DNA of 41,845 bases, from assembly GCA_020630215.1 (NCBI GenBank), contig JAHDBT010000009.1, positions 1 to 41,845 on the forward strand, given 5' to 3'. Under the pieces are notes generated by a model that was not told the DNA's origin, searched no databases, and was given only the letters and a program-made list of their open reading frames with translations. The first letter of the stretch is position 1, and the number at the start of each line of letters is the position of its first letter. A program made the translations under genes and the position numbers. Of this stretch, positions 8,907 to 41,386 are shown piece by piece. Source of the stretch: Bacteroidota bacterium. GTDB lineage: Bacteria; Bacteroidota; Bacteroidia; Chitinophagales; UBA2359.

Positions 8907-9905
8907 TTAATACTTTTAATAAAAGGGAAATAGCGTATAAAGGTAGTCTAAGTTTAACACTATTAATAGGCAGTTTACTCAATAATCTTACGAGTTTAAA
9001 ATGCTGTTATGATGCTTGTTTTTAATAAGTAGTCTTTTTAATGCCTATGCCTTCTTGCTGCTTTGTATAGGAGGAAAAAGTACAAGAAAGTAAAATCAAG
9101 TAAAGCCTATTTACAACGTTTCTCAATGCTATTTCGTCTTATATTTTACATTCAGAAATTTTTTGCATCCATTCCTAAGTAAAAATATGGGACTAATTGA
9201 CACAAACTTAGTTTTTTAGCATACATTCCGTACCTTTGCTCCCTCATTTTCAGGTACTTAGATAGATATCCTCATTGCTCCTAGCAATATATACACCCCC
9301 AATAAACAAAACAGACACATCTCTACCAATAAAGAGAAGCAATTTTTAATGACAAATATCGAATGCTTGCTTTTTGAGAAATGTATATAAGTGGCTTATA
9401 ACCAGTACATAAGAAAGAATAATTTTGTTCGATACTACTGTAAAGTAGCCTTTTTTAAATGACAAGCCTAAAAAAATGTTATTGTTAGATAATGTATTTT
9501 TAGCGAACTTTACCCTAAAAGTATTTAATAGGTTAAGCCGGGACAAAACTATTTATTTTTTTTACTAAAAAACAAAAAAATAAGTTAGCAAAACTTAATA
9601 CACTACCTAAATAACAGAATATAATAATATAAAAATTATTTTTGTCTGTTGCAAAACCAATTTGTTTAATTATTACATTGTTTACATTTTAAACCTAAAA
9701 ATGCTCGTGTAAGGAATCGTAGAAAAATCTAACATGCTTTATTTTATGGTATGGTCTTAATACCAAGTAACTGCCAATTTTTTTTAATATAAAGGCTAAC
9801 CACTTAAAATAAACGTGTTAAAAAATGTAAGTTATTTTACGCAATTTCTAAGCTCATTTAGTGAGTTAATACACAGCAAATCCAATTAATTTATACCAGT
9901 TAGCT
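8907..9905. other. 1-kb AT-rich non-coding region between the regulator and the giant gene
   Basis: No plausible gene. The stretch holds a TAnnTTTG motif at 9231-9238, a small hairpin ATTGCT-cct-AGCAAT at about 9274-9288, a second weaker TATTTTTG at 9637-9644, and very AT-rich DNA from about 9540 to 9905. It presumably carries the control region and a long leader of the giant surface protein gene. Confidence 0.5.
9231..9238 (+). promoter_or_regulatory. Putative -7 element upstream of the giant surface protein gene
   Basis: TACCTTTG followed by CT matches TAnnTTTG. The -33 position has no clear TTTG, although TTGACA occurs at 9197-9202. If used, the leader before the ATG at 9906 would be about 660 bases. 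Confidence 0.4.
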
Positions 9906-37470: not shown

Positions 37471-37692
37471 GTGAAAGTGACAAAATAAAAGGAACCATTA
37501 TTACTTATCGTATGTTTGCCCAATCCTGCGTTACAAATGCTCGCAATAGCTCGCTATTGGCCATTCGTCCGCAAGCGGTTCTCTACACTTAAATATCAAA
37601 AGGGATATTTATTTTACTGCGTAAAAACCGTTCGTTCATAGCTTGAACAAAACAATCGCGCATAATGGTTCATTTTATTTATCCCTTTTCAC
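37471..37692. mobile_element. 222-bp non-autonomous element with inverted ends
   Basis: Ends at 37471-37501 and 37662-37692 are imperfect inverted copies sharing GTGAAA, AAATAAAA and GAACCATTAT. The interior carries ATCCTGCGTTACAAATGCTC (from about 37514), which matches the interior of the element at 40386-40544 in the opposite orientation with two differences. No coding capacity. The right end continues as CACCATCCCTAAG, also found at about 170-182 near the left edge of the window. No clear target duplication is visible. Confidence 0.65.
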
Positions 37693-37710
37693 CATCCCTA
37701 AGGATAATTT

Positions 37711-39907: not shown

Positions 39908-41386
39908 CTATATGTTACCCGTCAGGGCTAGGAGTTGGATTACCGTAGGTGGCGCTCTTTTGGGAAGCAAGGTTTCGATAATGACCAACGCCTTTTCGCC
40001 ACAATGCCTGCAAGCATTGGGCGAAAAATTTAATCGTTCTTCGCAAAGCTGCTGCCAGGATTTTTTAGGTTCGTGTACTAGCGGTTTCATTCCTAAACTT
40101 TTCCTTGCTTTAGCCAGCTTTAGTGCTTTAAACCTCGAACACAAAAAGCCATAATGCCTAATGCGCCTAAATCCTGTGGGGAGTATGTGCATAGCATATC
40201 TCCGGACGAACTCAGCTTTACTTAATCGCATAATCTTGGGCTTTGCTGCCTGCCGATAATCTTTGTAAGCAAAGGCAATATGGGTATCCGTAATTTCCAA
40301 AATTCGGTTATTGGAGATGGCTACTTTGTGAGTGTATCTACCTAAATACTCAATAACTTGCTTAGGACCTAAAAAAGGTCTTTTAGTAACGTTTAAAAAA
40401 TAAATCCGACAATTTGTACGTAGAGGTTTTGTGCTTAGACAAGGCGCAAAACGCAGCCATAGCCTAAGCTACGGCGAGTATTTGCAACGCAGGATAAGTG
40501 CAAAAGATCAAGTAGAAATGACGGATTTATTTTTTATGCGTTACTTAGCATAAACGACCCACTTTTTTTGAAACAGTTGCTTGAACAATATATTAGGAAT
40601 AGGGATATTTTCCTGCTTGGATGCTTTTCGTAACAGAGCTACAAATTTGGCTCTAAATACTAGGCTCATCGCTTTTACTGGAAACAAAAATTTGCCTTTT
40701 CCACGTCCCATTTTCCATTTGCCACTCGGTGTTAATCCGCCACCAGGCACAATTAAATGAACATGAGGATGTAGGCTTAAATTTTGTCCCCAAGTGTGTA
40801 AAACGGCAGTTGCGCCAGTTTGTGCTCCTAAGTGTTTAGGGTCCTTGGCAAATACATGCAATGTTTGCCATGCTGCTTTTAATAGTATGTTGTACAAGAC
40901 TTTTGGGTAGTGTAAACAGTAGAGGTTGAGTTGTTCAGGAATGGTAAAAACGACATGGAAGTAAGAGGTATTTAATAACTCTTCTTCTCTAGCCATTATC
41001 CATTTTTCTCGATTGAGATTTTGGCATTTATTGCAGTTCCTATTGCGACAACTATTGTAACTTACTTGGACGGTTCCGCAGGCAGTACAAGCATCAATAT
41101 GTCCACCTAGTGCAGCGGTTCTGCAATCGGAATAGCTCAAACTTGGGGCTTGCGTATCATTGAGCATTAAAAGGTAGTCGTTAATTTGTGCATCCGATAA
41201 GTGAAGGGGAATACAGCCAAAATGCAAGCTCATTTTAGCTAAACATTTGCCATAGTTTTGGAGTGTTGAAGCACTTTGCCCATTGAGTTTAATTTGGGTG
41301 TGCATTTTGTCGAAAAAGCTTTGAAATTCGGGTACCTTGGTACAGGCTTGTTCAATTAAAGTACGCTGGTTAACATTAAAAGTCAT
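39908..41386 (-). pseudogene. IS91-family (Y2 HUH) transposase, recombinase-fused and disrupted by an insertion
   Basis: The first part (41386 to 40541) gives 281 residues. Residues about 1-84 look like the core-binding domain of a tyrosine recombinase (STLQNYGKCLAKM, then INDYLLMLN and PSLSYS). From about CRTAALGGH (88-96) the sequence is IS91 transposase: zinc cysteines C100, C103, C113, C118 and C121, and the HUH motif H208-V-H210 in LHPHVHLIVPGG. The frame stops at YAK because a 159-bp element is inserted at 40386-40544. Beyond it the same frame resumes as KRPFLGPKQVIEYLGRYTHK, carrying the catalytic pair Y-x-x-x-Y, and runs to the stop at 39908. Removing the element and one TAA restores about 438 codons. 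As it stands neither half can be active. Confidence 0.85.
40386..40544. mobile_element. 159-bp MITE-like element inserted in the IS91 transposase
   Basis: Terminal inverted repeats of 23 bp (40386-40408 and 40522-40544, 21 of 23 matching, outer bases GTAACG/CGTTAC). A TTA triplet directly flanks each side (40383-40385 and 40545-40547), i.e. a 3-bp target duplication. The interior contains a GCGAGTATTTGCAACGCAGGAT-type core (written here as GCGAGTATTTGC then AACGCAGGAT) shared with the element at 37471-37692. No coding capacity, so it must have been moved by an enzyme encoded elsewhere. Its right end supplies the premature stop codon of the transposase. Confidence 0.85.

Follow-up and report, generated by a model that had tools for sequence, protein, structure and literature searches.

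The window studied here, a stretch of 41,845 nucleotides that forms one contig (JAHDBT010000009.1) of the fragmented Bacteroidota bacterium assembly GCA_020630215.1 (7.41 Mb in 767 contigs), raises the question of what has cut an IS91-family transposase gene in two, and of how the geneless sequence lying in the cut is moved. We propose, with a probability of roughly 0.8, that a non-autonomous miniature inverted-repeat transposable element (MITE) hit the transposase gene and that it belongs to a group of elements with a constant core, moved in trans. The insertion itself is ordinary; what is new here is that the centre of the element is common to families with different ends, which the preliminary description of this locus had missed.

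Table 1. The interrupted transposase gene and the inserted element (positions in the window).
Feature	Position	Strand
Split IS91-family transposase, C-terminal part with the YLGRY pair	39908..40382	-
TTA target duplication, left copy	40383..40385	.
159-bp MITE (end family F1), orientation CAAGGC to AACGCAG	40386..40544	+
Left terminal inverted repeat	40386..40408	+
Conserved core, 5' half (CAAGGCGCAAAACGCAG)	40440..40456	+
Core apical stem-loop CCATAGC-CTAA-GCTACGG	40457..40474	+
Conserved core, 3' half (CGAGTATTTGCAACGCAG)	40475..40492	+
Right terminal inverted repeat	40522..40544	-
Split IS91-family transposase, N-terminal part with the zinc-binding domain and the HUH motif HPHVHL; ends at the duplicated TAA	40541..41386	-
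TTA target duplication, right copy	40545..40547	.

The element cuts a pair of minus-strand open reading frames, of 281 amino acids (40541-41386) and 130 amino acids (39908-40300). Both match the Pfam profile Y2_Tnp, over positions 1-97 and 126-178 of its 183, so that the break falls between positions 97 and 126; the first also matches Zn_Tnp_IS91. Alignment with homologues places the insertion point between HPHVH, which we take to be the HUH motif, and YLGRY, presumably the YxxxY pair, and it is by these two domains, the HUH motif and the two tyrosines that the gene is assigned to the IS91 family. With the flanks joined through a single TTA, 438 codons are read without a stop across the junction ...WVVYAK-RPFLGPKQVIEYLGRYTH... 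(YAK-RPFLGPKQ); in the present coding strand a stop lies at the duplicated TAA itself. The 162 inserted bases amount to 54 codons and the frame number is thus unchanged: deleting the element removes stops, not a frame shift. The preliminary description, which had the insertion part the HUH motif from the tyrosine pair and the frame restored by removal of 40386-40544 and one TTA, was therefore correct in both respects.

An empty site, which that description suggested seeking, is provided by four aligned plasmid-borne homologues, from Arenibacter, Myroides, Sphingobacterium and Chryseobacterium (49-59% identical to the window transposase), all of which (4/4) are contiguous at the insertion point. 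Their lack of the insert bears on whether the 159-bp stretch could be a natural part of the IS91 transposase gene or, in an assembly of 767 contigs, an artefact, an explanation that we regard as refuted and of negligible probability: the stretch carries stops in the transposase frame and recurs, identical or at 99% identity, at at least 39 other places, and 28 of the 29 other copies examined have duplications of their own. The frame, the four uninterrupted homologues and the duplicated flanks of copies elsewhere also uphold the proposed order of events, the IS91 gene first and the element later. The IS91 event thus allows an exact comparison with the empty site and gives the events a direction.

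The IS91 gene has no further match in its own genome, so the broken copy is the sole one seen. IS91 transposases on Bacteroidota plasmids, which lie beside a tyrosine recombinase gene, have the same order of zinc finger, HUH motif and YxxxY pair, and the window gene differs from them in being cut by a MITE. It also differs in its neighbour: the first ~80 residues of the split transposase (window 41139-41386, minus strand) match the N-terminus of the tyrosine recombinase encoded ahead of IS91 transposases on those plasmids (36% over 73 residues), and the recombinase gene is otherwise missing. The absence of its catalytic part suggests that it was lost in an older in-frame deletion. On Myroides and Sphingobacterium plasmids (L110, L111), relatives of the IS91 gene are found near aadS, blaMYO-1 and erm(F).

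Nearly all the structural tests run identify the 159-bp element as a MITE. It is short and non-coding, with stops in all three minus-strand frames, and its ends, GTAACGTTTAAAAAATAAATCCG and GTAACGCATAAAAAATAAATCCG, are terminal inverted repeats of 23 bp with inverted identity at 21 of 23 positions. Near-identical copies are numerous and dispersed: all 40 scored (from 372 candidates) are full length, 35 at 100% and five at 99% identity, and the 184 matches of the 23-bp end pattern in the genome (99 forward and 85 reverse, against 0 for the reversed control pattern) indicate roughly 90 or more copies. We fetched 31 rows by exact element match, with the flanks unused in the search; as the window copy was among them twice, they represent 30 distinct insertions, of which 16 are flanked by TTA/TTA, 13 by TAA/TAA and one, near a contig end (L004), by TTA/TAA. 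The exact ends and the 3-bp duplication claimed in the preliminary description are thus confirmed, and further copies with duplications, which it had proposed to look for, do exist (29 of 30 distinct insertions); the target, which it gave as TAA, is really TWA. The one F1 copy in 30 with unequal flanks counts against our account. Because the testable defining features of MITEs are present, we file its group as a new MITE variant and not as a new kind.

Of 42 complete elements from several families, two have an open frame of 60 codons or more on each side, namely the window copy and L123:5471-5629; taken with the near-identity of the copies, this marks a recent burst, mostly into intergenic DNA. 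The copy at L123 is another of the F1 family that interrupts a reading frame, with 178 and 91 amino acids on either side, and the split protein looks, we presume, like a SIMPL/DUF541 protein.

It is usually by the ends that a MITE is recognised; its interior can decay freely. In this genome, a CAAGGC...AACGCAG module around a covarying stem, ~55 nt from the tips, is present in many elements with differing ends. Elements 231 and 233 bp long share their arms with the 159-bp element and differ from it in the centre; with one of them as query, elements bearing other ends were found. Within an own-genome sample of 0.80 Mb (61 pieces including the window, partly chosen for holding copies), the same centre lies between ends of the types GTAACG-, GGGATGG-, GTAGTTGG-, GTAGTGG-, GTGAAATG-, GTGAAAAG- and GTGGTTTG-, and a more divergent centre between GGGACGG-, GTAATGG- and GGGAAGCC- ends. 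To avoid circularity, TWA-flanked inverted pairs of 60-400 bp were also sought in the sample by their ends alone, which gave 48 pairs against 4 in the reversed control. The core motif is present in 38 of these and one half of it in two more, and the covariance model matches five of the other eight, so that a core or half-core is found in 45 of the 48; the remaining three measure 189, 282 and 358 bp. Across eight representatives of the end families, identity is 0.90 in the core, 0.58 and 0.61 in the two arms and 0.48 when an arm is shuffled. In own families whose arms are whole, each tip lies 53-56 nt from the core, the exceptions being the hybrid F4_L131, at 54 and 59, and two elements carrying the cassette on the 3' side, at 125-126; in other genomes, where ends were sought only 35-85 nt from the core, the distance is 52-58 nt in 19 of 21 accepted elements and 58-61 in L212 and L224. 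The 159-bp element thus belongs to a group with a constant folded core and exchangeable ends.

This group comprises hairpins of 155-160 bp and longer ones with a second hairpin cassette. A triple-hairpin cassette of ~72 bp lies in the apex of F1, F4, F5, F6 and F7 elements and on the 3' side in F1d_L142 and F5_L142, and the F4 element of L131 (~8914-9072) is a hybrid with the same core between unrelated ends, GTAGTGG- on the left and GTGAAAG- on the right. Core cassettes have clearly been exchanged, as would be expected if these were ordinary MITEs belonging to a number of IS5-like insertion sequences, with a separate transposase for each end family, and the core passed between families by recombination or template switching with no role in movement. 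The TWA targets, which would suit IS1031/Harbinger-like transposases, fit this explanation too, and we give it a substantial chance, though one clearly below even; the folding of the core and the search for a transposase, considered below, argue against it.

The ~72-bp cassette may be mobile by itself; in the sample it was always within such elements so far as examined, and it is seen in tandem or outside the apex at L115:19042-19325, L137:70-360 and L142:15898-16126. Elsewhere in the window there is a second, more decayed hairpin element with this cassette at 37471-37698, with TAA on its left side; the stretch 1-135 has a GTGAATGAG-kind end at 50 and, at 54-135, two GTGGTTTG-type ends that form a TAA-flanked pair of 82 bp. 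A single plus-strand open reading frame of 6,992 codons occupies 9906-30884.

The core extends beyond this genome. Of 248 genomes of the order, 18 contain the pattern AAAACGCAG N(9-39) GAGTATTT, the own genome among them with 87+63 matches, and the reversed pattern gave one match overall. The stem is visible by eye in 13 of the 17 other genomes; in G131, G596, G107 and G012 no stem was seen by eye and the matches were counted as chance. In G020, which is of another family, the covariance model finds 48 copies in 0.90 Mb, and in 20 own contigs taken by number (~0.20 Mb) it gives seven matches at E < 1e-6. Counting against our account, small pairs sought by ends in G020 were not in excess of the control (15 against 14), and the ends are therefore less alike there. 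The F1 ends are more restricted: the strict end pattern is in 0 of 148 other genomes and the relaxed pattern in 1 of 394, a match judged to be chance, with no mate or core in the 320 bases read. A scan of contigs for the ends returned at least two loci, of which L072 was judged chance and L073 is real. The latter lies in the Saprospiraceae assembly MAG-96, which has 23 F1-kind ends; of 11 loci read there in the forward direction six have a partner end, at exactly 159 bp in five cases and at 167 in the other. Viral contigs gave 0 and 0 matches for the end patterns; for the core pattern they gave 31, two of which have support from the model (E 0.00025 and 0.07); plasmid and phage records gave no match to the element group.

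Does the core owe its constancy to its structure? Its half-sites were in the search pattern, and the constancy of these comes partly by selection of the sequences; the stems were not in the pattern. RNAalifold places 26 pairs in 26 core sequences, 17 of them with compensatory change. For a named structure of 29 pairs, 91.5% of 753 cells are paired, against 73.5 in shuffles and 39-46 for slid partners; 127 cells are changed on both sides (45.5 in shuffles) and the covariation score is 0.471 (0.156 in shuffles), none of these values being reached in 500 shuffles. The stems thus covary far beyond the controls.

One strand appears to be favoured. In all 20 representatives (20/20), the strand that reads CAAGGC to AACGCAG gives the better RNA fold, and it still does so in 20/20 once the shared module is removed, although these are not independent. 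Arm mismatches that would pair as G-T on this strand outnumber those on the other by 26:7 with one element per end family (p 0.0013), by 62:18 in 21 elements from other genomes and by 70:25 in 18 non-redundant G020 elements (15 elements to 1); the three sets agree in direction, and their p-values are too small, as the elements are related by descent and the last two sets have a few G020 elements in common. The 21 elements were kept from 28 (L198, L199, L204, L205, L206, L213 and L225 failed the end rule), and ten of them lack equal TWA flanks (L201, L203, L212, L214, L216, L217, L218, L223, L224 and L227); the G020 set is what remained of 42 used model matches, out of 48, after near-duplicates were removed. 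Elements whose ends were chosen by the equal-flank rule are no test of the duplication, for which the 30 exact-match insertions serve. In the apical stem no such bias is seen (13 against 11), and an A-C cell that is frequent there would pair on the other strand; both count against our account. The wobble bias suggests selection on a folded single strand, which could be RNA or single-stranded DNA. Compensatory changes in the core across genera, the near-fixed distance from tip to core and the one-strand bias together suggest selection on folding, which mere exchange of a core among plain MITEs does not give.

Strand-specific pairing, and an RNA z-score of -9.6 on the plus strand against -7.4 on the minus, would also be expected if the elements were kept for an RNA function, as RNase III substrates or small RNAs in the manner of Correia elements, with mobility secondary. 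We think this unlikely, as the copies have no preferred orientation relative to neighbouring genes (12 same, 12 opposite, which also counts against our account), the 159-bp copies are near-identical and hence recent, and the module is without an Rfam family: no match was found for the element in L020, L033, L034 and L073 or for the core in ten other loci, and a MIR7504 match on the element was rejected as below the gathering score. Flavo-1 RNA (RF01705), also a structured RNA family, differs from the module in sequence and structure, and was not found at the element in those four loci nor at the core in the ten others. Two Flavo-1 matches do lie close to a core element at L207:2093-2183 and 1329-1416 (49.6 and 31.2 bits, one above and one below the gathering score).

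An intact transposase with matching ends, which the preliminary description suggested seeking, was not found. The own genome has no match to PF01609, PF13586 or PF13359, and holds no DDE_Tnp_1, DDE_Tnp_1_2 or DDE_Tnp_4 partner of the kind that an IS5-group or Harbinger-like MITE would have; a single 15-bit match to PF07592, sought in two genomes, in a stretch without a matching open reading frame, was rejected as chance. Inverted TWA pairs 500-4000 bp apart showed no excess over reversed ones, either in the own 0.80 Mb (77 against 87) or in 0.90 Mb of G020 (139 against 197). An autonomous partner with the same ends, usual for MITEs though no strict part of their definition, was thus seen neither by four Pfam families in the own genome nor by end pairs in 0.80 Mb, from a bin that may miss short contigs. 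This counts against our account and also against a separate IS5-like transposase for each end family, but the absence of a partner is weak evidence, as the shortest contig fetched has 2,601 bases and an insertion sequence present in many copies could have dropped out of the bin if its contig was short.

To return to the constant-core group moved in trans, the 159-bp element went into a TTA of the sole IS91-family transposase gene seen in this genome and produced the 3-bp duplication. From the duplications and the inverted ends, we infer that it is most likely moved in trans, by a transposase making cuts at TWA with a 3-base stagger. The tips vary between families, and the central structured module is kept at its near-fixed distance from both. 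We tentatively suggest, at not quite an even chance, that this module is a handle, recognised folded and single-stranded (as RNA or as one strand of DNA) and needed by the mobilising machinery or a host factor. More speculatively, and doubtfully, there may be a class of order-wide mobile hairpins, defined by the structured internal loop (CAAGGC / AACGCAG) ~55 nt from freely changing tips and mobilised via one folded strand, in which the core would serve as the address, arm length as the ruler, and the tips only as the place of TWA cutting. If the core is needed for movement, it would represent a new recognition principle for small bacterial transposons and its covariance model could be used to find the enzyme; if it acts as RNA, it would be an unlisted structured RNA family spread by transposition.

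A constant-core group of MITEs in Bacteroidota was not found in the literature searched, which does not cover most subscription journals. In a review, the bacterial MITEs Correia/NEMIS, ERIC, QMITE and Chunjie are given as less than 500 bp long and mostly intergenic, with inverted ends and a short target duplication; bacterial MITE transcripts are said there to fold as stem-loops, the elements being thought to be moved in trans, and likeness among type II MITEs to be confined to their ends (PMC10969869). The elements described here share the size class, inverted ends, duplication, intergenic bias and folding of the named MITEs, and depart from type II MITEs in that the ends differ between families and the centre is common. 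Unlike in usual MITEs, then, the ends vary here, and structural selection across genera acts on the middle. In REP/RAYT systems and at attC-type sites a folded strand is recognised and sequence change that preserves pairing is tolerated. By analogy, the folded-strand recognition that we propose, with its tolerance of pairing-preserving change, would resemble these systems, whereas the present element has a 3-bp target duplication, which to our knowledge they do not make.
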